DNA from: Bacteroides eggerthii
GTDB taxonomy: Bacteria > Bacteroidota > Bacteroidia > Bacteroidales > Bacteroidaceae
Length of the DNA: 64,000 nt
Direction of reading: 5' to 3'
Assembly (NCBI RefSeq): GCF_025146565.1
Contig: NZ_CP102258.1
Location: forward strand, 2,636,001 to 2,700,000
A program made the position numbers and the translations under genes. Of this stretch, positions 24,526 to 38,416 are shown one piece after another. The notes beneath the pieces are model-generated. The model made no database searches. It was not told the DNA's origin and was given only the letters and a program-made list of their open reading frames with translations. Within the stretch, counting starts at the first letter, position 1. Each line of letters begins with the position of its first letter.

Positions 24526-26355
24526 TTAGCTCCGAGATCCGTTCGTTGAGCGGGGAATATTCTCAGCCCAGCGGGTCTTCCTCTTCGCCTCCGTCAACTC
24601 CTCCGCCGCCGGATGTGCCGCCTTCTCCGTCTGTTTTGTTTGCCAGGACTTCAAGATCGTAGAAGTCAATCTTTTGCCGATGAACGAGGAGTGTCGCGCC
24701 AGCGTAAACGCTTCTACGTCATAAGCCTTACGCTGTGTTATGTTGTCCTGCGCGATAATCCTTTTCAGGGCGGAGAGTTCTCCCGGTTTCACGCCTTCAA
24801 ACTCTTCCATATTGATGATGATGCGTGTGGACAATAACCGTTCATGGTCTTTGTTGGCAGGGTCTATGATGCCGTTGTAGAAGTATTCTTTCCATTCGGG
24901 CGGCAGCAGGTGGCGAATCCAACTGCTTTTTCCTTTGCCCTGTTCGCTGTAAAGGATAATCACAAGCTGATTCATCTCGTCTTCGCGCAATGCGCATGCC
25001 ACCATTCCCACGAGCCACCTCCGGAAACCTTCTGTCCATAGCGGTTGGTCTTCGGTCTGTACGGTTTCCGCCAGTTGGCCGATATAGTCCGTCCCGTCCC
25101 AGGGCGCAAGCCTGTCCAGATAGTCGGTGAAGGGGTTGAATTCTTTGGCGTAGTCCGAATCTATCACTGCCTTGAGGAAATTCTGGAAACAGGAGATGCT
25201 TGCCAATTGGAGATCCACGAATATGGAGTTATAATCTTTTCCCCGCATGGGACGGTAGCCTGCGGAGGAAGTCGAAGACTCGTTGCAGACGGTGAATTCC
25301 AGACGGTCCAGAATCATGTTCCGGCGTATGCCGTAGTGTGCTTGCAGAAAGTCCATTACGCGGTTGATGACCGGTTGCTTATCCTCTTTCCGGGTGGTGG
25401 TATCGGTAGTCTTGTCAGTGTAGATGTAGGCGTTGTGCAAAGGTGTGCGGACATCGAGGTCATCTTTGCCGAAGTCCTTTTGCGCCAGCCCGATGGCTTT
25501 TTCTTCGTCAAGTCCTTTGGCATAGCACTTATTCCCCAGCGCAAAGAGGAAATTGTTACGGTTTCCCTTTTTGAATTTCATGCTGCGTTTTACGGCGGTC
25601 ACCGCTTTGGAGAATAGCAGTTTCTCCCAGGGCTCTGCTTCGGGCAGGGGAGAAGCTGCGGTGCGGGGACACACCTCTATGCCGGCAGGTTTTCTTACCG
25701 GCTGTTTTTTCGCTCCTTTTTCGGGAGCGATGATGTGGACTGCCAATGGTTCTATTTGTTGCTGCAATGTCGTGTTCAGATAGGCTTCCGGGTCGTAGGA
25801 GATGAAATAGCCTCTCGATATGTCCTTGCCGCTGCCGTCTATCTCCGTTCCAAGCAATGCCTCGTAATATTGTTTGGCATCGTTGTACAGTTTCGAGTGT
25901 ACCTCTTCCAGACCCCCGTAGTCTATTTCTCCTTGCAGCAGCTCTGCGCGTAGCCGGCATGCATATTCGGTCTGCCTGAACACGAAAATTTTGTAACCAT
26001 GCCTTTTGGGAGACAGGAAGCTGCCTAAGGTATTCGGGTCGTTGTTGATCAGGCTCCGTATGGCTTCCAGACGATCTTCTTCCAGTTCGTCGAGGTCGAG
26101 GGTGATAACCGGATTGTAGCGGATAATGCCGTATGCCAACCTTCTTTCGCGATAGTTTGCTGTGAGAGTTCGGAAAGGCAGTTGTTTCTTTACGTTGTTG
26201 GCTTCTTCCGTCTTGCCCTGTATCACGAGGGAGGCAATTTTGATGATTAGTCTGGCATATTTGCCGTTCTTGATGTCCGCCATGTCCTGCGCGAGTGTCG
26301 TCTCTCCGTTGACGGTGCTGAAACCACGATAGGTGATTACTGAAATACTTTCCAT
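24526..26355 (-). pseudogene. VirE-like primase-helicase gene, 3' part lost and joined to foreign sequence
   Basis: 609 codons. The N-terminus (about 1-140) matches the VirE-N/BT4734 domain and the middle to C-terminal part the VirE P-loop family, with SEQGKGKSSW as Walker A and IIINMEEFEGV as Walker B. The family normally runs on after the HSSFI segment with a conserved stretch on host nucleotide and arginine residues. Here, directly after HSSFIG, the frame changes to an arginine-, lysine- and threonine-rich tail of about 50 residues that resembles no family member. A different frame over the same DNA encodes an acidic, glycine-rich tail typical of Bacteroides HU-like proteins. Read together this is a deletion joint, so the protein is probably inactive. 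Such genes often sit near capsule loci and mobile DNA. Confidence 0.65.
24563..24676 (-). pseudogene. Tail of an HU-like DNA-binding protein gene (remnant)
   Basis: In the frame offset from the VirE-like gene the minus strand reads QKIDFYDLEVLANKTDGE, then a Gly/Glu/Asp-rich run ending EEEDPLG and a stop at 24563. Bacteroides HU-family proteins encoded beside VirE-like genes often end in such acidic, glycine-rich tails. There is no start or DNA-binding arm left. The assignment rests on composition and position, not on a search. Confidence 0.5.
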
Positions 26356-26417
26356 TTATTTTGTTTTAGTTTGCCTTATTGGCGCTGCAAAAGTCTGCAT
26401 TATATCGCTATGAACCA

Positions 26418-26449
26418 AAAACGGCTTTTCCTGCGAAAAGCCGTTTTTT
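26418..26449. terminator. Bidirectional intrinsic terminator
   Basis: A perfect 12-bp stem (26418-26429 with 26436-26447) with a 6-nt loop, ending in six T on the plus strand and five on the minus strand. It would stop the minus-strand gene that ends at 26487 before the VirE-like gene. Confidence 0.75.
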
Positions 26450-26486: not shown

Positions 26487-26810
26487 TCACATTACGGGAT
26501 ATAGTTCGTTGTATAACTTATATATCTCATCTTCAATGCACTCCGGGTTCAGAGTGTTGGCTCCTCCGTCCGCATCCATGAAGTCTACGAGCAGGTGCAG
26601 CGTTCTCGACAATTGCCTGACTCCTTGCAGTCCATGCGTCTTTGTAGGATTTATCAGCAGTTGTATAAAAGGGGATAGGAATATTTTCCGATCCGCATAC
26701 TTCACGCGTAAGCGCTTGTGTGTCTGCGATAATACCTCTATTACGAGTCGCGTTTTTTCGCTTTCTTTACGGTAAATCACTTGGATGTCTGCCTCCTGAA
26801 GCATCTTCAC
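26487..26810 (-). CDS. Hypothetical protein, 107 residues
   Basis: No family recognised. A soluble, basic N-terminal half (QTHKRLRVKYADRKIF) followed by a more acidic helical C-terminus (DADGGANTLNPECIEDEIYKLY). The methionine at codon 3 is an alternative start. It is bounded by a strong terminator downstream and has its own -7 like box TAACTTTG (minus, 26886-26893). In the orientation seen here the invertible promoter at 27126-27156 also points towards it, so it could be expressed when the capsule operon is off. Confidence 0.55.
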   Translation of the reverse strand: MKMLQEADIQVIYRKESEKTRLVIEVLSQTHKRLRVKYADRKIFLSPFIQLLINPTKTHGLQGVRQLSRTLHLLVDFMDADGGANTLNPECIEDEIYKLYNELYPVM

Positions 26811-27094
26811 TTCAATTGGAGTTTTTTTAACATGATAGTCACAATTAGAAAAGTGTTTATTTATAATTTGCTAACAAATCGGATGCAAAGTTAACAAATA
26901 GTGGCATTGCATCTTCTTCTTTATTCCAATAATTTCCTTTTTGTGGAAAGTGTGTTTGTGATGTTATAGATAGGGGGAGGTAGCTATCCCTGTTGTTATA
27001 TTAATGTAACACACACTTTTATAAAAGAAAAAGAATGATGCGCCTGCGCGCGTATCTTATATTAACGAAAAAGGAATTAAAGTAAGGGGGAGGG
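26811..27094. other. Non-coding stretch before the invertible segment
   Basis: No gene seen. It holds the -7 box for the 107-residue gene (26886-26893) and a structured zone: 26947-26955 can pair with 27011-27019 (9 bp), and inside it 26969-26973 with 26984-26988. A GC-rich run lies near 27040-27050 in otherwise AT-rich DNA. Confidence 0.5.
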
Positions 27095-27119
27095 AAGTGT
27101 TTTTTAAACGTTCGTTTAA
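27095..27119 (+). repeat. Left inverted repeat of the invertible promoter
   Basis: 25 bp matching the reverse complement of 27305-27329 at 24 of 25 positions. It contains AAACGTTCGT, which fits the ARACGTWCGT core that I recall for Mpi-type invertible capsule promoters of B. fragilis. Confidence 0.85.
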
Positions 27120-27304
27120 TAGACGCAAAGGTAACGTCAAGAAATGACATTACAAAATATTTTTTCAAATAAAATGGAAATCTCTTTGAATATTGCAGGT
27201 ATACTATTGATTACTAATAGGTTGAAAATGGCTTCAAATTGGAGATTTGTTATGGCTTTTTGCAAAAATAGAATGAAGCCTTTTGTACTCTTAAAGGGTG
27301 TTTT
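27120..27304. promoter_or_regulatory. Invertible promoter segment of the capsule operon, OFF orientation
   Basis: 185 bp between the two inverted repeats. The only good promoter inside it reads leftward, away from upxY. Inverting the segment would move the -7 box to 27291-27298 on the plus strand, with transcription starting inside the right repeat about 160 bp before upxY. No plus-strand TAnnTTTG box is present in the current orientation. This is the layout of phase-variable capsule loci in Bacteroides. The recombinase is not in this window. Confidence 0.8.
27126..27156 (-). promoter_or_regulatory. Promoter inside the invertible segment
   Basis: On the minus strand TTTG (27153-27156) and TACCTTTG (27126-27133) are 19 bases apart, an exact match to the Bacteroides consensus. 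Confidence 0.8.
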
Positions 27305-27329
27305 TTAAACGAACGTCTAAAAAACACTT
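27305..27329 (-). repeat. Right inverted repeat of the invertible promoter
   Basis: Its reverse complement contains AGACGTTCGT and matches the left repeat except for one base. The leader of the capsule operon begins here after inversion. Confidence 0.85.
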
Positions 27330-27384
27330 TTTGCTTTTAACTCATTCGTTTGCAATACTTTATAGACGCTAAACTAACATCGTA

Positions 27385-27419
27385 CGGTTTGAATGGTCAG
27401 AAATGTCCCGTTCAAACCG
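27385..27419 (+). promoter_or_regulatory. Leader hairpin upstream of upxY
   Basis: A 12-bp stem (27385-27396 with 27408-27419, one G-U pair) with an 11-nt loop and no T tract. A smaller stem (27433-27437 with 27441-27445) follows. UpxY-type antiterminators are known to act through the leader of their own operon; this hairpin is the obvious candidate pause or recognition element. Confidence 0.5.
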
Positions 27420-27468
27420 CGAAGCGCACCCTAATCCGAAGGATTCCTTTAACTTATATTACTTTTAA

Positions 27469-28002
27469 GTGTCTGAAACACAGAAATATTGGTTTGCTGC
27501 CCGCACTCGTGACAAGCAGGAGTTTGCCATATGCAAATCCCTTTCCCGGTTGAAGTCTGAGGAGCATTTGGATGTCGATTATTACCTTCCCACCCGTATT
27601 GTGGTTTCCCAGTTGAAGTACCGCCGCAAGCGCAGTGAAGTCCCTGTCATCCGCAATCTGGTCTTTATCCGTACCACCAAGCAGACGGCCTGCGACCTTT
27701 CCAATGTCTATGGCGTGCGTCTTTTCTATATGAAAGACCTCTTCACCCGTTCCATGCTTGTGGTTCCGGACAAACAGATGTCCGATTTCATGTTCGTGAT
27801 GGACCTGAATCCCGACGGTGTCAGCTTCGACAATGGCTCCCTTGTTGTAGGCGACAGGGTGCGTGTTGTCAAGGGCGATCTCACCGGTGTTGAAGGCGAG
27901 GTTGCCACAAATGCCAACAGGACGTATGTCGTTATCCGTATCAAGGACATCCTGACCGCAAGTGTCAAGGTTCCCAAATCTTATTTGAAGATAATCAAGT
28001 AA
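27469..28002 (+). CDS. upxY: UpxY family capsule transcription antiterminator (NusG-like)
   Basis: 177 residues from a GTG start. N-terminal NusG-like domain (YWFAARTRDKQEFAICKSL) and C-terminal KOW domain (VVGDRVRVVKGDLTGVEGEVA). UpxY proteins keep RNA polymerase going through long capsule operons by acting on their own leader. It is the first gene of the operon and lies about 140 bp after the right inverted repeat, as in the family's known loci. Present orientation of the promoter predicts that it is silent. Confidence 0.93.
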   Translation: MSETQKYWFAARTRDKQEFAICKSLSRLKSEEHLDVDYYLPTRIVVSQLKYRRKRSEVPVIRNLVFIRTTKQTACDLSNVYGVRLFYMKDLFTRSMLVVPDKQMSDFMFVMDLNPDGVSFDNGSLVVGDRVRVVKGDLTGVEGEVATNANRTYVVIRIKDILTASVKVPKSYLKIIK

Positions 28003-28057
28003 TAATTCAAACATTGTTTTCAAGAAACAATAATATTCCATCAAAATCCCTTTCTCA

Positions 28058-28540
28058 ATGAATAATTTGACTTCTCGTGCTCTTGAGCTCCAGCGTTTGG
28101 CTCACGAGCTGATTTATCTTGGTGTAGACGGTGAGCCTATCTATTCAGACACCTTTTGCCGTTTGAATAAGGATGTCCTTCTGGAGTGCGATTCTCTTTT
28201 CTTGCTCCGGGGTAGCACCTCCGATGAAGAGGCCAATCTCTGTCTGGCTCTCCTTTTAGGTTATAATGCCACGATTTATGACTACGGTAATAAGGAGCGT
28301 AATAAGCAGTCTGTGCTTGATCGTGCTTTTGAGGTGCTCGAACAGCTTCCCGCCTCCTTGCTGAAAGTGCGCTTGCTCACTTATTGCTATGGTGAGGTCT
28401 ATGAAGAGGCCCTGCTTCGTGAAGCCCACGAGATAATAGGGAGCTGGGACAATACCTCGTTGTCCTCCGGACAGGCCGAGATCATTGAAGAGCTTCGTAA
28501 CATTGAGGAGAATCCTTATCCTTACGAAGTGATAGAATAG
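28058..28540 (+). CDS. upxZ: UpxZ family antagonist of other capsule loci
   Basis: 160 residues, soluble and acidic. It fits the UpxZ family by position directly after upxY, by length and by features such as the LRGSTSDEEANLCLALLLGY segment. UpxZ proteins block the UpxY antiterminators of other capsule loci, so that one capsule prevails per cell. Here it lies 55 bp after upxY. Its activity would be tied to the ON state of the invertible promoter. Confidence 0.88.
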   Translation: MNNLTSRALELQRLAHELIYLGVDGEPIYSDTFCRLNKDVLLECDSLFLLRGSTSDEEANLCLALLLGYNATIYDYGNKERNKQSVLDRAFEVLEQLPASLLKVRLLTYCYGEVYEEALLREAHEIIGSWDNTSLSSGQAEIIEELRNIEENPYPYEVIE

Positions 28541-28577
28541 GAAGAAAATAGAACTAAACTAAGACTTTTATATTTTT

Positions 28578-29213
28578 ATGGAACCAATTGAGAAGGATGA
28601 TCATTTCATTCCCGACGGAATGAATGCCTTTGAGCGTAACGTAAAGCGTATCGGCGACTGTATTCTGGCCCTTGGCGCGCTTATTGTTTTTTCTCCTTTA
28701 TTTTTACTCTGTTATATAGCGGTGAAGCGTGAAGACGGTGGTCCCGCTATCTTCAAGCAGGAGCGTATCGGGCGTTTCGGTCGTCCTTTCAACATCTATA
28801 AGTTTCGCAGTATGAAGCTGGATGCTGAGAAGCATGGCCCGGCCCTGTATGCCGGTGAGGGAGACTCCCGTATGACTAAAGTAGGCCGTTTTCTTCGCGA
28901 CCACCACTTGGATGAGCTTCCCCAGCTTTGGAACGTGTTCTGTGGTGATATGGCCTTTATCGGTCCCCGTCCCGAACGTCAGTTCTTTATCGACCAAATA
29001 ATGAAGGAGGATCCTCGCTATCGTTATTTGTTCCAGATCCGTCCGGGCGTCACATCATATGCCACTCTTTACAATGGCTATACCGATACTTTGGAGAAAA
29101 TGCTCCGCCGTCTGCGTTACGATTTGTTCTATCTGGAACACCGTTCTTGGGGCTTTGACATCAAGATACTTTTTATGACGTTTATGAATATAGTGTTCGG
29201 GAAGAAATTCTAA
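28578..29213 (+). CDS. Initiating sugar-phosphate transferase (polyprenyl phosphate)
   Basis: 211 residues. One N-terminal membrane segment (about 24-45) and the catalytic PglC/WcaJ core: KQERIGRFGRPFNIYKFRSM, then the ELPQLWNVFCGDMAFIGPRPE block. It moves a sugar-1-phosphate from a UDP-sugar to undecaprenyl phosphate and so starts the repeat unit on the inner membrane. In many Bacteroides capsule loci this gene is last; here it directly follows upxZ. Confidence 0.92.
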   Translation: MEPIEKDDHFIPDGMNAFERNVKRIGDCILALGALIVFSPLFLLCYIAVKREDGGPAIFKQERIGRFGRPFNIYKFRSMKLDAEKHGPALYAGEGDSRMTKVGRFLRDHHLDELPQLWNVFCGDMAFIGPRPERQFFIDQIMKEDPRYRYLFQIRPGVTSYATLYNGYTDTLEKMLRRLRYDLFYLEHRSWGFDIKILFMTFMNIVFGKKF

Positions 29214-29290
29214 ACTATTTTCTGAGATAAGCAGAATCCTGTTAGGAAGTCTCGATATTTCAGTATATCTTTGAATAAAATTAGGAAGTT

Positions 29291-29518
29291 ATGAGCAAAT
29301 CCAAACCATACGAAGAGCAGAAAACGGAAAATCAGATGGCGAGTGAAGCGTCGATGATGTATGAAACCGCTCGCAGTGTGGATGATTTCGTTGCATCTAT
29401 ACCTGTGGATTTTATGCAGAAACTTGCGGAACATGCCATCGCAGAATGTAAGGCAGGGCGAGGTATTCCTCACGAACAGGTTGAAGACTTGATTGATAGG
29501 CGAATGGGATGGAAATAA
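29291..29518 (+). CDS. Small antitoxin-like protein
   Basis: 75 residues, no cysteines, acidic and helical. The C-terminal part (FMQKLAEHAIAECKAGRGIPHEQVEDLIDRRMGWK) resembles the addiction-module antitoxins that precede ParE/RelE toxins in Bacteroidetes. A 22-codon frame overlaps its last ten bases and looks like the start of such a toxin. It has no relation to polysaccharide synthesis that I can see. The assignment rests on pattern only. Confidence 0.55.
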   Translation: MSKSKPYEEQKTENQMASEASMMYETARSVDDFVASIPVDFMQKLAEHAIAECKAGRGIPHEQVEDLIDRRMGWK

Positions 29519-29577
29519 ATTGGTTGTTTTCTGCGACAGAAGACTTGATTTCTCTTTTAAATAGAGTGAATGAATAG
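29509..29577 (+). pseudogene. Truncated ParE/RelE-like toxin stub
   Basis: ATG 29509 opens MEINWLFSATEDLISLLNRV followed by NE and a stop. The spacing of Trp, Ala, Asp-Leu-Ile fits the first helix of ParE/RelE toxins, which usually run to about 95 residues. The remaining 180 bp before the flippase gene hold no continuation. The overlap with the antitoxin-like gene is that of a real pair. A short chance frame is possible. Confidence 0.4.
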
Positions 29578-29621
29578 AAATTAGCTATTTAGTCAATACC
29601 CCCCAAGTGTTATTTATTATA

Positions 29622-29698
29622 CAAAATCTGACGATAAAATTATCATTATCTCTATTCTTAATTCGAAGTAATCTCTTGAAAATATATATCAGATTTTG
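29622..29698. repeat. 10-bp inverted repeat pair before the flippase gene
   Basis: CAAAATCTGA at 29622-29631 and its exact reverse complement at 29689-29698, 57 bp apart in AT-rich non-coding DNA. No function assigned. Confidence 0.35.
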
Positions 29699-29757
29699 GT
29701 AAATGCTTTAAAAGCAAATAGTCTGTTATAAAATGTTTTAATATAAATATATTTCAC

Positions 29758-31305
29758 GTGTCTGAATCTTCCCGGACTGCCAAGAGCATCAAAAATGCGA
29801 AGGTAGCCCTTATCTTTTATTTCATTAATTTAGTTCTTCAGTTCTTCTCTCGCAAAGTCTTTTTGGACTATTTGGGAGCGGAGGTGCTGGGACTGAACAC
29901 TACGGCGCAAAACCTGATAGGTTTTTTGAATCTGGCGGAGTTGGGAATTGGCGGTGCTATTGCTTTTACGCTCTACAAACCTATTTATGAAAAGAATACG
30001 CAAGTTATAAATGAAATTGTTTCCGTACAAGGATGGCTTTATCGGCGGGTGGCATACGTGGTAATAGTTGGTGCCTGCATTTTGATGTGTTTCTTTCCGT
30101 TGATTTTTGAAAAGGCAGAAGTTCCTTTGTGGTATGCTTACGGTTCGTTTTCCGTTCTGTTGGTCAGTACTCTCCTAAGCTACTTTGTCAACTATCGTCA
30201 GATAGTGCTGACTGCTGACCAAAAGGAATATAAGATAACGCTGAATATACAGGGCTTTAAGGTTATAAAAGTAATCCTGCAAATATTTGTTATCAGCTAT
30301 TTGAGCAATGGATATGTGCATTGGATGATTTTAGAGTTGCTGATGTCGGTCACTACGGCTATTGCTTTAGATAAGTTATTGAAGCGGGAATATCCATGGT
30401 TAAAAACGGTAGTGAATGATGGAGATCGGTTAAGGCGAATCTATCCAGAAATTATCAGTAAAACCAAGCAGGTATTTTTTCATCAAATAGCAGGATTTGT
30501 CCTTCTCCAGACCAGCCCTTTGATTATCTATGCTTATTCTTCCTTGACTTTGGTTGCTATTTATGGCAATTACATGCTTATAGTGACAGGGCTTTCTTTA
30601 TTAATGGATGCATTGTTACGGAGCGTGAATGCAGGGGTGGGTAGTTTAGTTGCAGAAGGTGACAAACGGTGTATTAAGCGGGTGTTTTGGGAATTGACTT
30701 CCTTGAGAATATGGCTTGCTTCTATTGCTTGTTTTGGGATGTATAAATTAGCTCATAGTTTTATTTCTTTGTGGGTGGGCGAGGAGTTTGTGTTAAATCA
30801 GTCTGCATTTTTCATATTAATAGGCATTACTTTTATTAATTTGGCACGGACGAACGAAACTTTCCTGTTTGCCTATGGTTTATTTCAAGATGTTTGGGCA
30901 CCTATGATGGAAGCCGCGCTTAATTTGGGGTTATCTGTAGTGTTAGGCTATTTTTGGGGGTTATCTGGCATTTTGTCTGGCGTCATTATCAGTCTGTTGC
31001 TCATAGTTTGTGGGTGGAAGCCTATTTTTTTGTACAGGTATGGGTTCAAGGAGAATATACTGGAATATGTAGTGCGACATTTAAAGTATTTCCTGTTGAT
31101 AGCCATTTCTTTTATTTGCATTTCTGTTCTATCAGATAGTTATTTATTAATACCGACATATTCTTATGGACAATGGGGCTTATATGCTTTAAAACTTTTG
31201 GCTTGCTATTCCATATTCAGCTTTTTCTTGTTCATAGGAGGGGATAATGCTTTTCGTTCATTAACGGTGCGTTTCAAGTCGTTATTAATGAATAAGTGTT
31301 CGTAA
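29758..31305 (+). CDS. wzx: Capsule repeat-unit flippase (Wzx type)
   Basis: 515 residues from a GTG start, with 12-14 membrane segments in the polysaccharide-transport MATE/MVF layout. It begins KNAKVALIFYFINLVLQFFSRKVF, as many Bacteroides flippases do. It would turn the undecaprenyl-linked repeat unit to the periplasmic face. It starts the AT-rich part of the locus. Confidence 0.85.
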   Translation: MSESSRTAKSIKNAKVALIFYFINLVLQFFSRKVFLDYLGAEVLGLNTTAQNLIGFLNLAELGIGGAIAFTLYKPIYEKNTQVINEIVSVQGWLYRRVAYVVIVGACILMCFFPLIFEKAEVPLWYAYGSFSVLLVSTLLSYFVNYRQIVLTADQKEYKITLNIQGFKVIKVILQIFVISYLSNGYVHWMILELLMSVTTAIALDKLLKREYPWLKTVVNDGDRLRRIYPEIISKTKQVFFHQIAGFVLLQTSPLIIYAYSSLTLVAIYGNYMLIVTGLSLLMDALLRSVNAGVGSLVAEGDKRCIKRVFWELTSLRIWLASIACFGMYKLAHSFISLWVGEEFVLNQSAFFILIGITFINLARTNETFLFAYGLFQDVWAPMMEAALNLGLSVVLGYFWGLSGILSGVIISLLLIVCGWKPIFLYRYGFKENILEYVVRHLKYFLLIAISFICISVLSDSYLLIPTYSYGQWGLYALKLLACYSIFSFFLFIGGDNAFRSLTVRFKSLLMNKCS

Positions 31306-31448
31306 GTTGAGATAAGCTGGTTTTATTTAATGACAATCTTCTTTTTTTAACTTGGAATGAGTGGGCTGAAGGGCGTCATTTAAAACCTTGTTGAAAGTGA
31401 GGAGGGAATTATTTAGAATTTACTAAAAATCTTTTGATCAAGAATGAT

Positions 31449-32603
31449 ATGACTAATGTACTATTTGATTTAATCTCGTTACAAGATTATCGTAGTGGGG
31501 GTGGAGAGTATGTTAAAAAGGTATTTGATGAATTACTGCTATGCAACTCAATTAATATATATGGCGTATATGATTCAGAATTATTATTTATAGATAATGA
31601 CTTTGATGAGTTTTCTAAACAAATAGAAATGTTTGATATTAGAAAGATGAAGTTGTCAAATATAATTAATGTCTGCAAAATTGATATTTTATTTATAGGT
31701 ATTATTCAAAGATATAATCCATATGATTTGAATAATATATACTGCAAAGTAATATGTGTTATGCATGATATTGGCGATATTGAAATTACCCAGAATAATA
31801 TCCATTTTATGTATAAGCATACAATAAAAAACTATATAAAATTAACTATTGACTATTGGAATGAGAAGAGTAAATATTCTACTAAAAATAGAGTTTTAAA
31901 ACAGTACGGTAATATTAGACAATTTTTAGGGAAAGCAAATGTTTCTTTATACACAGTTTCTAATTATTCGTCAAGTTCTATATTGTATTTTTTTCCCGAA
32001 TTGAAAGTGAAAAATATAACAGTATTGTATCCGCCGCCAAAAAGCTATATTCGTTGTGATAATATTGATGATGTAACAATACAGAATCTTTTTTCGTCAG
32101 GAAAAAGATATTTATTATTTGTAAATGCGAATAGAGATAATAAAAATTTCAATGTGTTGAATAAATGTATTGATAAAGTGGTTAGCAATTTTCCTAATAT
32201 GTATATAGTGGTTACTGGTTTAAATATGCAAGTTGAAACAAAAAATGTGATAGCTTTGGGCTATGTGTCTAATTCCGATATGGAAAATTTATATCAGAAA
32301 GCCTGGGCACTAATATATGCGTCATATACAGAAGGTTTTGGATATCCTCCTATCGAATCTTTAAAGTATTCAGTACCGGTAATAACTTCTAATGTCTGTT
32401 CTATGCCTGAAATATTATCAAATGCAGTATTATACTTTTCTCCTTTTTATGAAAATGATTTATTTTTTAAAATAGTACAATTACATAAAGAATATCAATA
32501 TTATCAATCTCTAAGTTACGAACAATATACAAAGATAAGAAAAAAGCAAGAAATTGATTTTGCTAAATTGATGAGTTGCATAATAGATAAAATAAATCAA
32601 TGA
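31449..32603 (+). CDS. Glycosyltransferase family 4
   Basis: 384 residues from ATG 31449; a TTG five codons earlier is less likely. GT-B fold. The donor-binding E-x7-E motif is EGFGYPPIE in the C-terminal half, followed by ESLKYSVPVITSN. It adds one sugar to the lipid-linked repeat unit at the cytoplasmic face. Very AT-rich. Donor and linkage unknown. Confidence 0.82.
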   Translation: MTNVLFDLISLQDYRSGGGEYVKKVFDELLLCNSINIYGVYDSELLFIDNDFDEFSKQIEMFDIRKMKLSNIINVCKIDILFIGIIQRYNPYDLNNIYCKVICVMHDIGDIEITQNNIHFMYKHTIKNYIKLTIDYWNEKSKYSTKNRVLKQYGNIRQFLGKANVSLYTVSNYSSSSILYFFPELKVKNITVLYPPPKSYIRCDNIDDVTIQNLFSSGKRYLLFVNANRDNKNFNVLNKCIDKVVSNFPNMYIVVTGLNMQVETKNVIALGYVSNSDMENLYQKAWALIYASYTEGFGYPPIESLKYSVPVITSNVCSMPEILSNAVLYFSPFYENDLFFKIVQLHKEYQYYQSLSYEQYTKIRKKQEIDFAKLMSCIIDKINQ

Positions 32604-32662
32604 ATGTGGTTCTGATCGGGTTCGGTCGTAGATTATATTGCTAAATTTGTATTTATATTAAT

Positions 32663-33538
32663 ATGTGTATTCGTGTTGCTGCTACAGTTATTCTTTATAA
32701 TCCGGATGAAATTAGTTTACTGTTAAATATTTCATCGTATATAAATGATGTTGATAAACTTTATGTTATAGATAATTCCGATTTTTCACTAAGTTCAAAA
32801 ATCGTGGAATACTTTCTTTCAATAAATCATATTGAGTATATAAATTTAGGAGGGAATAAAGGTATTGCATATGCATTGAACTATGCTGCTATCTCTGCTA
32901 TAAAGGCCGGGTATGATTGGTTAATGACAATGGATCAGGATAGTAAAGCGACTCCTTCAATGGTAAATAAATTGATGTCATTTGTATATGACAATAGAAA
33001 TAAGCATTTAGGAATTGTTGCCGCTCGTCCAATTTTTACTGACGAAACAGTTGAAGTAAGTTTGATACCGAAATATGAATATGTAGATGTGGTAATATCA
33101 TCAGGTAATGTTATAAACTTAGCTGCATATGAGGAAATAGGTGGATTCGAAAATAAATTATTTATAGACTCTGTTGATACAGATTTTTGCCTATCTCTGC
33201 ATCTTTTTAAATATAAAATCATTCAATTGAACACTGCATTATTTTTACATCGATTGGGAGACTGTAAAAGGAAATATTTTTTAGGGTTCATCAAAATGAC
33301 TCCTACATTTCATTCTGTGGTGCGTAGGTATTATATAACTCGTAACCGTTATTATTTGTTTGATAAATATAAGTATGAATTTAGAGATTGGATTCGTAGG
33401 GAAAAATATAAAAATTATAAGGAGTTTATAATGATATTGCTTTATGAACCTAATAAGTGGAAAAAAGTACTCGCTATTTATAAAGGTTGGAAAGATGCTC
33501 GGAAAGGTGTTTTTGGTGGTTTAAAAACAAATCTATAA
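32663..33538 (+). CDS. Glycosyltransferase family 2, rhamnosyltransferase-like
   Basis: 291 residues. GT-A fold with an N-terminal ATVILYNPDE segment, the metal-binding TMDQDSKA motif near residue 94 and a later VDTDFCLSLHLFKYKI segment as in rhamnosyl or galactofuranosyl transferases. It overlaps the open frame of the polymerase but not its chosen start. Donor unknown. Confidence 0.82.
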   Translation: MCIRVAATVILYNPDEISLLLNISSYINDVDKLYVIDNSDFSLSSKIVEYFLSINHIEYINLGGNKGIAYALNYAAISAIKAGYDWLMTMDQDSKATPSMVNKLMSFVYDNRNKHLGIVAARPIFTDETVEVSLIPKYEYVDVVISSGNVINLAAYEEIGGFENKLFIDSVDTDFCLSLHLFKYKIIQLNTALFLHRLGDCKRKYFLGFIKMTPTFHSVVRRYYITRNRYYLFDKYKYEFRDWIRREKYKNYKEFIMILLYEPNKWKKVLAIYKGWKDARKGVFGGLKTNL

Positions 33539-33564
33539 TCGACAGGTTAATTGTATTTGTAGAT

Positions 33565-34623
33565 ATGTTTTTAGAATTTATAGTTCTTTTTATTTTGCTT
33601 TGTTTTCTATCCTTCATACCAACGAAAAAAAATAGAGACATCAATATCGTATTCTCCTCCGTTGGATTATTGTTATTTCTTTTTGCTGCTTTTAGGGATG
33701 GTGATTATATTGATTCGCGAGGGGTACAATTAAGTGACTATGATGTTTATATATCATATTTTAATCATTATCAGGATGCACTTGTTGAACCGACATTTAA
33801 GTGGATTTCTCAGATTATTCATAGTTTTGATGGGGGGTATATATTTTTATTCTGCATATATGCTTTTCTGGGCCTGTATTGCAAGTTTCTTGCTATAAGT
33901 AAGTTATCAACATTAGTTTTATCGTCCGTATTAGTTTATGTTAGTCGTTTCTTTATGCTTCATGAGATGACGCAAATCCGTATTGGAGTAGCTTCTGGGT
34001 TAGTATTATTAAGTTATATATATATATATGAGAAAAATATAAAAAAGTTTTTGTTTTTTGTGCTTATAGCGACCATGTTTCATGTATCGGCACTTTTGGT
34101 AATTCCTTTTTATTATTTTAATTGTCATTCTATCAATAAACGTTTGTATGGATTCTTAATTCCATTGTCATACGTCTTTTATTTTACAGGTATAAAGGTT
34201 ATTTCATTGTTGAAATTATTACCTATAAACTTCATTCAGGCTAAAATAGATACATATTTGGAATTACAAGAAATAGGTGATAGTGTGGCTTCTGACATCA
34301 ATGTTTTTAATTGGGTACATATTGTGCAGTGTATTATTGCGTATTTGTTACTTAATAAGGTAGGAGAAATTGCTAAATATAATTCATATGCATATTTATT
34401 GATTAAAATATATATATACGCATTAGCTTTTTATGTGTTCTTTGCAACATTCCCAGTTCTTGCAGGTCGCGGTAAGGAACTTTTTTTAATCGTTGAAATT
34501 ATTGTAATTCCTTGGCTTACATATCTTTTTAAACCACGAATGATTGCTAAAAGTATAGTTGTTGCGTATGCGATTATAATAATGGGAATAGTAGTGTTTT
34601 ATGATAAAATAATACCTATATAA
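33565..34623 (+). CDS. wzy: Capsule polymerase (Wzy/EpsG type)
   Basis: 352 residues from ATG 33565, with about 10 membrane segments and a large external loop. The early region FRDGDYIDSRGVQLSDYDVYISYF is typical of EpsG-like polymerases that join repeat units in the periplasm. A longer frame starting inside the preceding gene is rejected, since those residues are charged and out of keeping. The next gene begins on the last base of its stop codon. Confidence 0.8.
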   Translation: MFLEFIVLFILLCFLSFIPTKKNRDINIVFSSVGLLLFLFAAFRDGDYIDSRGVQLSDYDVYISYFNHYQDALVEPTFKWISQIIHSFDGGYIFLFCIYAFLGLYCKFLAISKLSTLVLSSVLVYVSRFFMLHEMTQIRIGVASGLVLLSYIYIYEKNIKKFLFFVLIATMFHVSALLVIPFYYFNCHSINKRLYGFLIPLSYVFYFTGIKVISLLKLLPINFIQAKIDTYLELQEIGDSVASDINVFNWVHIVQCIIAYLLLNKVGEIAKYNSYAYLLIKIYIYALAFYVFFATFPVLAGRGKELFLIVEIIVIPWLTYLFKPRMIAKSIVVAYAIIIMGIVVFYDKIIPI

Positions 34624-35450
34624 TGTCACTTGCAATTTTGATGTCTACCTTTAATGGTGAGAAATATTTAAAGGAGCAAATAGATTCCTTACTAAATCAA
34701 GAATATGAAGCCTTTGATATCTATATTCGTGATGATGGATCCACTGATCAAACAGTTTCTATACTTGAGAATTATGAACATATATATCCCAATATATATT
34801 TGTTAAAAGATACACAAGGAAACATAGGCGTTTTCAAAAGTTTTATGTATTTATTGTCACAAGTGCATGCTGACTATTATATGTTTTGTGATCAAGACGA
34901 TGTATGGTTGTCAAATAAGATTTCCATGTCAATGAAACGTATGAATGAATTGGAGGATATTTATACTTTACAAATTCCACTTTTAGTTTTTACAGATTTG
35001 GTTTTGGTAAATCATAAATTGGATGTTATTGCAGAGTCTGTGTGGAAAATAACGAAAACAGTTCCTGACATTGCTTTAAAATATTTGAATGGAGTTTGTC
35101 CTATGGCCGGATGCACTATGTTGTTTAATGATGCGGCAAAGAAAGTGTCATTACCCATTAGTGATAAAGGTTGGGTACATGACTATTGGGTGGCCTTGTC
35201 TGTTGCAAAAAAAGGAATAATTGGGTATGTTTCTCAGCCGTTGATTTGGTATCGCCAGCATGGTATGAATGAAATAGGAGCTATTGGATATCCTAAAAAT
35301 ATGCTATGGGAAAAAGTAAAAAACATTCGTAAAACGCTTCGTATTAATTGGTGTTCATATAAGATGGTTCATTTTATAAATAATATTGGCTGGTTTGATT
35401 ATTTAATTGTGAAGATAAAGTACGCTATTATATTAAGAAAGATATCATAA
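34623..35450 (+). CDS. Glycosyltransferase family 2
   Basis: 275 residues. GT-A motifs: MSTFNGEKYLKEQIDSLLNQ, RDDGSTD and FCDQDDVW. Stop and start codons overlap by one base with both neighbours, so translation is coupled across three genes. Donor unknown. Confidence 0.88.
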   Translation: MSLAILMSTFNGEKYLKEQIDSLLNQEYEAFDIYIRDDGSTDQTVSILENYEHIYPNIYLLKDTQGNIGVFKSFMYLLSQVHADYYMFCDQDDVWLSNKISMSMKRMNELEDIYTLQIPLLVFTDLVLVNHKLDVIAESVWKITKTVPDIALKYLNGVCPMAGCTMLFNDAAKKVSLPISDKGWVHDYWVALSVAKKGIIGYVSQPLIWYRQHGMNEIGAIGYPKNMLWEKVKNIRKTLRINWCSYKMVHFINNIGWFDYLIVKIKYAIILRKIS

Positions 35451-36526
35451 TGAGAATTGCATTTGTAGTAGGAGATATCTCCTCGGCGGGAGGTATTGAA
35501 AGGGTTTTAAGTATCTTAAGTAATCTTTTTGTAGAACGTGGTCATGATATTACTATTGTTTCATTGTTTAGGGCTCATGAGAAAATGAATTATCATTTTA
35601 ATTCAAGTGTGAAAATAATATCTCTTTCTCATTATCAATATGCATTGAAAAAACAAGGAGGTATCCTAAGACTTTGTATGTTTGGGTTGATACTTACATG
35701 TGCTAAACGATATTTTAAAGTGAATAATTTTGATATCATTATGGGAGAGGGATTTCCTGTTAATCTAATTTTATATTTGATAGGAAAGAAACAGAATGTC
35801 GTGGCATGTGAGCATGTTTACTATAATTATTATTCAAAAATAGTTAGAAGACTAAGGCTTCTTATATATAAAAAATTTAAGGCGGTTGTAGTTTTAACTC
35901 AGAATGATAAAAGGCATTTTGATAGATATCTGAGCGAGGTATATGTTATTCCTAATCCAGTTCTTTCTAATCCTCAAAAGAAATCGGATATATCATCTTT
36001 AAAAATGATTTCTGTTGGCCGGTTAGAACCTCAAAAAGGATATGACATGCTTCTACAAGCTTTACCTGATGTTTTTAAACTTTTTCCCAAATGGAGATTG
36101 CACATTTGGGGAAGTGGGGTTTTGGAAAAGCACTTGATAAGGTTGCGGGACAAACTTCATTTACAAAACCATGTGATATTTTGTGGAGTAACTGATAACA
36201 TAGAACAAGAGTATATTTCTTCTTCATTGTTTATCATGTCTTCTAGATATGAGGGATTTCCAATGGTTTTAATTGAAGCTATATCTTATGGATTGCCCGT
36301 CGTTTCTTTTGATTGCCCTGAAGGACCGTCAGATATTTTGAAAGATGGTGGAGGGGTGTTAGTTCCTCCGAATGATATTGTTGGGCTGAAGAATGCAATA
36401 ATCCAAATGCTATTGAATGAAAATGATAGAAGGAAATGCGCAGCAGAAGGGCCAATAATTTCAAAAAAATACTCACCTGATAATATTTACTCATATTGGA
36501 GTTCTCTTCTAGATAAATTATTGTAA
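35450..36526 (+). CDS. Glycosyltransferase family 4
   Basis: 358 residues, GT-B fold. N-terminal acceptor motif GDISSAGGIERVLS; C-terminal donor motif EGFPMVLIE and the VVSFDCPEGPSDIL segment common in galactosyl and amino-sugar transferases. Last gene of the AT-rich block. Confidence 0.88.
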   Translation: MRIAFVVGDISSAGGIERVLSILSNLFVERGHDITIVSLFRAHEKMNYHFNSSVKIISLSHYQYALKKQGGILRLCMFGLILTCAKRYFKVNNFDIIMGEGFPVNLILYLIGKKQNVVACEHVYYNYYSKIVRRLRLLIYKKFKAVVVLTQNDKRHFDRYLSEVYVIPNPVLSNPQKKSDISSLKMISVGRLEPQKGYDMLLQALPDVFKLFPKWRLHIWGSGVLEKHLIRLRDKLHLQNHVIFCGVTDNIEQEYISSSLFIMSSRYEGFPMVLIEAISYGLPVVSFDCPEGPSDILKDGGGVLVPPNDIVGLKNAIIQMLLNENDRRKCAAEGPIISKKYSPDNIYSYWSSLLDKLL

Positions 36527-36539
36527 AATATAGATTGAA

Positions 36540-37640
36540 ATGTTGCATGATTTTCTAATCGTTGGTGCTGGACTTTTCGGTGCCACTGCTGCGCACGTCC
36601 TTACCCGTCGTGGAAAGCGGTGTTTGGTGATAGACAAACGCTCGCATATAGGCGGCAATGTTTATACCGAAAATGTGAACGGCATCAACGTTCACAAATA
36701 TGGTGCCCATATCTTCCACACAAGTAGCAAGGATGTATGGGACTTTGTTAACTCATTCATAGAGTTCAACCGCTACACAAACTCTCCCGTAGCCAATTAT
36801 AAGGGGAAGCTTTACAACCTTCCTTTTAATATGAATACGTTTTACCAAATGTGGGGAGTTATTACTCCGGAGCAGGCGGCTGCGAAGATAGAAGAACAAA
36901 GGCGGGAATCGGGAATTATCAATCCCCACAATCTGGAAGAACAAGCGATTTCTTTAATTGGGAAAGATATTTATTACACGCTTATCAAAGACTATACGGA
37001 GAAGCAATGGGGCAGAAAGGCTACGGAGCTTCCAGCTTTTATCATTCGTCGTCTTCCTGTGCGCTTTACCTTTGATAATAATTATTTCAACGATAAGTAT
37101 CAGGGAATCCCTATCGGTGGGTATACAAAGTTAGTAGAGAAACTGCTGGGAGAAATCGAAGTGAAGCTTGATACAGATTATTTTGAGAACAGGAAATACT
37201 TTGATTCCATAGCAGACAAGGTAATTTATACGGGCGAGATAGACCGTTATTTCGATTATCGTTTCGGACACTTGGAGTACCGGACAGTAAGTTTTGAAAC
37301 CGAACTGCTGGAGGGTGTTGCTAATTATCAGGGTAATGCGGTGGTGAACTACACTGATGCAGAGACTCCCTACACCCGTATCATCGAGCATAAACACTTT
37401 GAATTCGGGAATCAGCCGGATACGGTTATCTCGAAAGAGTACTCCAAAGAGTGGAAGCCGGGCGACGAACCGTATTATCCGGTGAACGATGAGCGGAACG
37501 GGGCTTTATATGCCCAGTACAAGGCGCTGGCCGATGCGCAGGAGAGGGTGCTCTTTGGCGGTAGGCTGGCAGAGTATAAGTACTATGATATGCATCAGGT
37601 AATCATAAGGGCTTTGAATCTGGAAAATTCTTTAGTTTAG
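36540..37640 (+). CDS. glf: UDP-galactopyranose mutase
   Basis: 366 residues, full length. The FAD-binding LIVGAGLFGA motif is at the N-terminus, followed by RCLVIDKRSHIGGN, and KWKPGDEPYYP-like conserved residues near the end. It interconverts UDP-galactopyranose and UDP-galactofuranose, so the capsule probably contains galactofuranose. Codon use and base composition are closer to the chromosome than to the preceding genes. Confidence 0.95.
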   Translation: MLHDFLIVGAGLFGATAAHVLTRRGKRCLVIDKRSHIGGNVYTENVNGINVHKYGAHIFHTSSKDVWDFVNSFIEFNRYTNSPVANYKGKLYNLPFNMNTFYQMWGVITPEQAAAKIEEQRRESGIINPHNLEEQAISLIGKDIYYTLIKDYTEKQWGRKATELPAFIIRRLPVRFTFDNNYFNDKYQGIPIGGYTKLVEKLLGEIEVKLDTDYFENRKYFDSIADKVIYTGEIDRYFDYRFGHLEYRTVSFETELLEGVANYQGNAVVNYTDAETPYTRIIEHKHFEFGNQPDTVISKEYSKEWKPGDEPYYPVNDERNGALYAQYKALADAQERVLFGGRLAEYKYYDMHQVIIRALNLENSLV

Positions 37641-37657
37641 AAAAATCAAAAAATAGT

Positions 37658-38416
37658 ATGGAAAAAGGCTTGGTATCTATCGTTACTCCGGTTTATAACG
37701 GAGCGAAGTATGTGTGTGAAACGATAGATTCTGTATTGAGGCAGACATACGCGAATTGGGAAATGATAGTAGTGGATGACGGTTCGAAAGATAATAGTGC
37801 CGAAATTATAAATGAATATGTCCGGCGCGACAAGCGGATTGTATTGCTGAGGCAAGCTAATGGCGGTTCTGCTTCTGCCCGAAACAATGGGATAAGAAAT
37901 GCAAAAGGACAATATATTGCTTTGCTGGATGCTGACGATTTATGGGAACCTGATTTTCTGGAAAGCCAACTCGCCCTGATGAAACGGAAGAGTGCTATAG
38001 TGGTACATGCCTCCTACAAACGGATTAATGAGAACTCGGAAGAAATATTGCGTCCTTATCGAGCTAAAGAAGTAGTGACCTATAGACAGATGCAAATGAC
38101 AAATCATATTGCCTGTTTGACTGGTTTGTATGATAGTTCTGTGTATGGAAAAATTTATTTGAAAGAGGAGTTAAAAAGTATCAGGGATGATTATGCCTAT
38201 TGGCTTGACATTGTGAAGTTGGCAGGTAAGTCGTATGGTAATCAAGAGGTATTGGCGAGTTATCGGGTGATGGCGTCTTCTACAACAGGCAAGAAAAAGA
38301 AACTGGTTAAAGCACAATTCCTTTTTTATTATCGCTATCAAAAGTTGGGCATGTTGAGGAGCCTATTATATACTGTGTACTGGGGAATTCTTGGATTCAT
38401 TAAGTTTTATAAGTAA
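37658..38416 (+). CDS. Glycosyltransferase family 2
   Basis: 252 residues. GT-A motifs VSIVTPVYNGAKYV, VVDDGSKDNS and LLDADDLWEPDF. Last gene of the capsule operon, 17 bp after glf. Could be the galactofuranosyl transferase by position, but this cannot be shown. A strong hairpin follows. Confidence 0.88.
   Translation: MEKGLVSIVTPVYNGAKYVCETIDSVLRQTYANWEMIVVDDGSKDNSAEIINEYVRRDKRIVLLRQANGGSASARNNGIRNAKGQYIALLDADDLWEPDFLESQLALMKRKSAIVVHASYKRINENSEEILRPYRAKEVVTYRQMQMTNHIACLTGLYDSSVYGKIYLKEELKSIRDDYAYWLDIVKLAGKSYGNQEVLASYRVMASSTTGKKKKLVKAQFLFYYRYQKLGMLRSLLYTVYWGILGFIKFYK

Follow-up and report, generated by a model that had tools for sequence, protein, structure and literature searches.

The window analyzed in the current study, a stretch of 64,000 nucleotides from Bacteroides eggerthii, contains a capsule operon preceded by two inverted repeats and, on the other side of these, a short divergent gene. 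The features of the locus, in window coordinates, are as follows.

26490–26804, minus strand: conserved gene for a protein of ~105 amino acids, divergent from the capsule locus and faced by the promoter in the present orientation
27095–27119, plus strand: left inverted repeat, core AAACGTTCGT at 27106–27115, centre TT
27120–27304, no strand: predicted invertible segment of 185 bp (~201 bp from core centre to core centre)
27126–27156, minus strand: Bacteroides promoter TTTG-N19-TACCTTTG, reading left, OFF for the capsule
27293–27332, plus strand: palindrome over the right repeat with T-rich DNA after it, a terminator-like hairpin that faces upxY in the OFF orientation
27305–27329, minus strand: right inverted repeat, core AGACGTTCGT on the minus strand at 27318–27309
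27385–27431, plus strand: conserved leader hairpin CGGTTTGAA..TTCAAACCG (27385–27419), then CGAAGCGCACCC, between the repeat and upxY
27469–28002, plus strand: upxY, NusG-like transcription antiterminator (Pfam NusG; NCBIfam UpxY NF033644, 156 bits, cut-off 100)
28058–28540, plus strand: upxZ, antiterminator antagonist (Pfam UpxZ PF06603, 148 bits)
28578–29213, plus strand: bacterial sugar transferase (profile match)
28578–38416, plus strand: remaining capsule operon (sugar transferase, glycosyltransferases, EpsG, UDP-galactopyranose mutase)

A preliminary description, made from the letters of the window, had reported two 25-bp inverted repeats with one mismatch enclosing 185 bp, and this is what we found: the arms match at 24 of 25 positions, the enclosed DNA runs from 27120 to 27304, and arms lengthened to 30 bp match at 90%. 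Both arms contain the ARACGTTCGT core of Mpi-type invertible promoters within a near-palindrome, TTAAACG-TT-CGTTTAA, whose central TT is non-palindromic, in the manner of a serine-recombinase site. The core had been likened to the ARACGTWCGT motif of Mpi-dependent loci of B. fragilis. The likeness is supported by the repeats given in the accessible text of PMC8375218, ARACGTTCGTN for B. fragilis and GTTCGTTTAA for B. intestinalis, both of which fit the arms, while the W at the centre suits only a minority of sites, the central dinucleotide being TT in most and TA in 14% of 61 at each end. A 23-bp arm motif matched the window three times (both arms, and the right arm on the opposite strand with three mismatches) vs. 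0.00 times expected from 100 shuffles. The leftward promoter was also confirmed on the minus strand from 27156 to 27126, inside the segment and near one repeat, where it follows the TTTG-N19-TAnnTTTG form expected of Mpi-type elements. Since its -7 box adjoins the left arm on the minus strand, the promoter should fire leftwards; it points away from upxY, which lies to the right, and by this anatomy the segment had rightly been called OFF.

Profile matches confirmed a capsule operon in which upxY and upxZ are the first two genes and polysaccharide genes follow, including one for a weakly flippase-like protein whose match lies under the model's cut-off. The roles assigned to UpxY and UpxZ come from the literature (accessible portions of PMC12632263 and PMC7593976). 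The leader hairpin is a candidate recognition RNA for UpxY, proposed by analogy with LoaP, which binds a hairpin (PMC12691694, in the part available); covariation in its stem is thin, with changes on both sides in 1 of 10 pairs. When 49 upxY-side leaders were sorted by eye, at least three sequence classes emerged, and other UpxY subfamilies have different conserved leaders. The leader was not matched to a known RNA family by Rfam, which returned only a sub-threshold match to the Bacteroides sRNA BTnc231 (28.1 bits, gathering threshold 80.4) elsewhere, at 26347–26448, overlapping an inverted repeat with a T tail. The region from the right repeat through the leader, upxY, upxZ, and the sugar transferase (27293–29260) has near-copies, 99.1–99.4% identical, at two other capsule loci of the same genome (122268–124189 and 1886445–1888405). 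UpxZ, which in print acts on other loci, may not distinguish these three near-identical ones.

A search of the 4.2-Mb genome for further inverted repeats, suggested as a check in the preliminary description, gave nine pairs in all. The 16-bp site occurs 17 times at zero or one mismatch, always inside one of these pairs, of which the ninth (124160–124377) has a degenerate partner arm with two mismatches. Although the search set no spacing, start-to-start distances are 201–204 bp in eight of the nine pairs and 178 bp in the other. ARACGTWCGT by itself is common in the genome (48 matches vs. 52 for the control), but two inverted cores 165–195 bp apart occur eight times vs. none for a control in which the same two-core pattern was read backwards. 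This control was also without a match among 301 genomes of the family, six of which, all from the genus Bacteroides (one of 30 genera), contain pairs with a TT centre. Canonical pairs, with a TT or TA centre, number 97 in 22 of the 158 genomes of the genus, and the corresponding control matched 3 of 158, once each. An upxY operon follows seven of this genome's pairs, which are ON in two cases and OFF in five; the ninth pair is among them and counts as OFF because its promoter end lies away from upxY.

Other surroundings were also observed. One Mpi-type pair (genome 824916–825103; L042:5917–6104) has divergent sets of glycosyltransferase genes on its two sides (right, GT90/GT8/GT2; left, GT11/GT2) and no upxY in the fetched stretch; its promoter, represented by a -7 box only, faces right, and the pair is possibly an either-or switch. 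Another (genome 270398–270608; L041:6399–6609) stands beside a DUF3575 gene with no capsule operon, its promoter directed away from that gene. In genome G219, a window-type promoter directed at upxY is accompanied by one degenerate site that lacks a partner (L218:6970–7020), and this is apparently a locked-ON relative. Five draft contigs (L120, L146, L148, L164, and L165) stop 9–55 bp from such a repeat pair, which is what mixed orientations or repeated loci would cause.

The lack of a recombinase gene in the window had been taken to imply control in trans. Our search of the genome for serine and tyrosine recombinases, also foreseen in the preliminary description, returned 10 resolvase (PF00239) and 31 tyrosine-recombinase (PF00589) matches, and for these two families the window is indeed empty (0 of 10 and 0 of 31). 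Among the matches was an Mpi ortholog, a 198-aa serine recombinase encoded at genome positions 2434088–2434681; with this Mpi-family gene 228 kb from the locus, control in trans is likely. Its product scored 292 bits against the NCBIfam Mpi model (cut-off 272), which was run on five of the ten resolvase matches; the other four scored 247, 240, 77, and 68 bits, below the cut-off. It is 96% identical to Mpi of B. propionicigenes, 93% to that of B. gallinarum, and 92% to that of B. clarus. The Mpi of B. fragilis Q1F2 (genome G319), a strain with 10 canonical pairs, is 78–79% identical to the one here and scored 311 bits, and two published mpi primers (accessible text of PMC10939037) fit its gene with 1 and 3 mismatches.

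Across the genus, we counted as an Mpi ortholog any protein of at least 65% identity, a line set after seeing the gap between 65 and 57% in the list of matches, and found one in 27 of 158 Bacteroides genomes. Canonical pairs occurred in 20 of the 27 Mpi genomes vs. 2 of the 131 others (kinship ignored), and those two, G374 and G420, are both incomplete assemblies. A variant-core pattern was matched in six of the seven remaining Mpi genomes, the seventh (G338, 87% complete) being unmatched, and in three genomes without Mpi (G318, G335, and G428); the pattern is loose and was picked after it had been seen in Mpi genomes, and its backward control matches 3 of 158 genomes. Taken with the canonical pairs, it raises the count to 26 of 27 Mpi genomes vs. 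5 of 131 without, again with kinship ignored. The repeat pairs closely track the mpi gene, which amounts to a genus-wide test of trans control.

Relatives of the locus exist in both orientations. Sixty-seven of the 97 canonical pairs were fetched, from 14 of the 22 genomes, and the 50 with a readable upxY and promoter comprise 14 ON and 36 OFF, with 17 undecided. When 30 chosen locus pairs were compared, the segment fitted better inverted in 11 and in the same orientation in 19; in five of the 11, identity reaches 90% or more in each flank, and the segment matches only when inverted. In one example (L126/L132), flanks of 98.8 and 95.2% identity enclose a segment that is 46% identical as it stands and 99.4% identical once inverted. 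When these two loci are aligned base by base, differences bordering the core on its outer side go with the flank and those on its inner side go with the segment, which confines the exchange to the 8 bp ACGTTCGT. Four other aligned inverted pairs agree, placing the exchange within 18–26 bp around the core. An exchange inside ACGTTCGT fits cleavage by a serine recombinase at the two central bases. In genome G314 (L119), a pair with the window-type promoter segment and a class-A upxY is ON.

The nine pairs, the mpi gene, its co-occurrence with the repeats, and the relatives in opposite orientation are the reasons for which we count the locus in the Mpi/upx class. We infer from its sequence that it is very probably a phase-variable capsule switch, in which the segment would flip, Mpi would be the actor, and OFF would mean silent. 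Mpi, supplied in trans, would synapse the two cores, exchange strands at their centres, and invert the ~200-bp segment. After inversion, transcription would begin at the right repeat or a little upstream of it and proceed across the leader hairpin. UpxY would then keep RNA polymerase from terminating along the length of the long capsule operon, and UpxZ would hold back capsule operons elsewhere. As the segment now lies, little or no expression of the capsule operon is expected. In gut Bacteroides, sensitivity to phages is governed by capsule switching, which has also been linked to their dealings with the host (PMC8375218, accessible text).

The orientation seen here also aims the promoter at the small gene at 26490–26804, whose product has no Pfam or NCBIfam match. 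Its homologs number 25 in 23 genomes, the remote ones beside other upx loci, and nine aligned sequences share 23 invariant columns with identity down to 42%. Eleven homologs have a repeat pair in the fetched stretch, and the promoter faces the homolog in all of them, with upxY on the other side in nine and a contig end in the other two. A twelfth small-gene locus with a pair (G315, L127) fits the same pattern, and the promoter also faces the small gene in G363, whose homolog lies at a contig end. Close homologs in G232, G434, and G403 have no repeat pair, and there the promoter faces the capsule operon; nine remote homologs have no pair in the fetched stretch. ON orientations number 0 of 11 at small-gene loci vs. 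14 of 48 elsewhere (L127 included), giving p = 0.051 with kinship ignored, and an OFF bias at small-gene loci is possible.

On one reading of these observations, the switch works both ways, and the orientation seen here is itself an ON state, one that drives the ~105-aa gene on the minus strand. The constancy of promoter direction in 11 of 11 loci with both gene and pair, and the constraint on the protein, favor such a reading, which we nevertheless consider unlikely. A -7-like TAACTTTG lies 90 bp before the ATG, and such a box is found 89–90 bp before the start in three of the four small-gene loci compared, so that the gene may be transcribed from its own promoter. A conserved GC stem and a T-rich stretch separate the gene from the invertible promoter, which is ~330–350 bp upstream. 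Among the 67 fetched invertons, tblastn placed the protein next to three only (L048, L120, and L143). We considered whether this GC stem with its T-rich tail (~27022–27062) is a terminator that ends the OFF transcript before the small gene, and rejected it as such: it is conserved but folds weakly, with z of −1.55 in the window, −1.93 in L213, and −1.03 in L143, the L120 slice having missed the stem and being uninformative.

Against a working capsule switch, it could further be argued that the locus is a relic, its repeats intact but its segment locked OFF and no longer flipping. In line with this, no ON copy of the exact locus, with small gene and both repeats, was found: the 11 loci and the twelfth (L127) all point away from the capsule and so share one direction. 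The arms and core are intact, however, Mpi is present, and the small-gene loci of G232, G434, and G403, which lack the repeat pair, have a promoter facing the capsule, all of which makes a relic very improbable. It is equally hard to credit that the switch is inverted not by the Mpi ortholog but by one of two Mpi-like paralogs encoded in the same genome (at 1833674 and 1792323). With 54 and 53% identity to Mpi, these relatives could act in its place or alongside it, but both fall below the NCBIfam Mpi cut-off, and 11 of the 20 Mpi genomes with canonical pairs (G219, G232, G314, G315, G316, G319, G331, G337, G363, G381, and G434) have no Mpi-like recombinase besides the ortholog (E 1e-20). That the repeats arose by chance, or are a plain terminator hairpin mistaken for an inverton, has next to no probability: the right arm alone is a terminator-like palindrome, but the nine pairs with zero in the control, their co-occurrence with Mpi, and sister loci inverted in nature refute this reading.

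Within the capsule switch that we favor, the palindrome over the right repeat may have a part of its own. The hairpin at 27293–27332 has a predicted folding energy of −14.7 kcal/mol (z = −4.65), a stability that none of 200 shuffles reached; the end on the promoter side has little structure (−2.5, z = −0.93). A terminator scan, whose rule calls for at least three G-C pairs and a set loop, missed the hairpin. An asymmetry test, conceived after the window's hairpin had been seen, gave the greater stability to the non-promoter end in 42 of 61 loci (p = 3e-5, the loci not being independent); when the loci were grouped into 36 clusters, complementarity beyond the core was higher at the non-promoter end in 23, equal in 2, and lower in 11 (p = 0.008). 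Nineteen of the 61 loci do not show the stability asymmetry, and three (L138, L142, and L160) are strongly reversed; the table omits six of the 67 fetched loci (L120 and L164–L168) for contig ends, missing upxY, or an unclear promoter. These numbers hint that the non-promoter end is an orientation-dependent insulator. Because this end can pair with the outer arm of the one repeat or the other, a hairpin resembling a terminator should form behind the promoter whichever way the segment lies. In the OFF state, it would stand between upstream read-through and upxY, and in the ON state it would be replaced there by the little-structured promoter end. It is conceivable, if rather doubtful, that the flip moves a transcription barrier together with the promoter and that the OFF orientation may also feed the ~105-aa gene. 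The idea of an orientation-dependent hairpin was not found in the literature searched, which mostly left out subscription papers, and the accessible passages of PMC10994844 are silent on it. If true, it would help explain the silence of OFF capsule operons.

Capsule invertons operated by tyrosine recombinases, as in B. thetaiotaomicron, also have an invertible promoter before upxY, and a local recombinase gene is expected beside them. The present locus differs in this respect, with none of the 31 PF00589 matches in the window. It is much closer to the Mpi-dependent capsule promoters of B. fragilis, with which it shares the ARACGTTCGT core, a segment of ~200 bp, the TTTG/TAnnTTTG promoter, an upxY-upxZ operon, and a serine recombinase gene elsewhere in the genome, and from which it differs in species and in capsule gene set. 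In B. fragilis, a tyrosine recombinase gene lies head-to-head with mpi (PMC4747536, accessible text); here there is none near, with no PF00589 match within 500 kb of mpi. As a well-formed further example of a switch already known from B. fragilis, the locus would extend capsule phase variation to another Bacteroides. The five B. intestinalis capsule (CPS) promoters PVR7, 8, 9, 11, and 12 do invert, with a start site in the proximal repeat, and four of the five are mainly OFF in wild-type culture, according to the accessible text of PMC8375218; inversion and start sites were measured in that species and are predicted from sequence here. Like the present locus, these promoters precede CPS operons; their 10-bp repeat, GTTCGTTTAA, lies inside both arms here, and their length of 183–186 bp (PMC8375218) compares with 185 bp in B. 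eggerthii.
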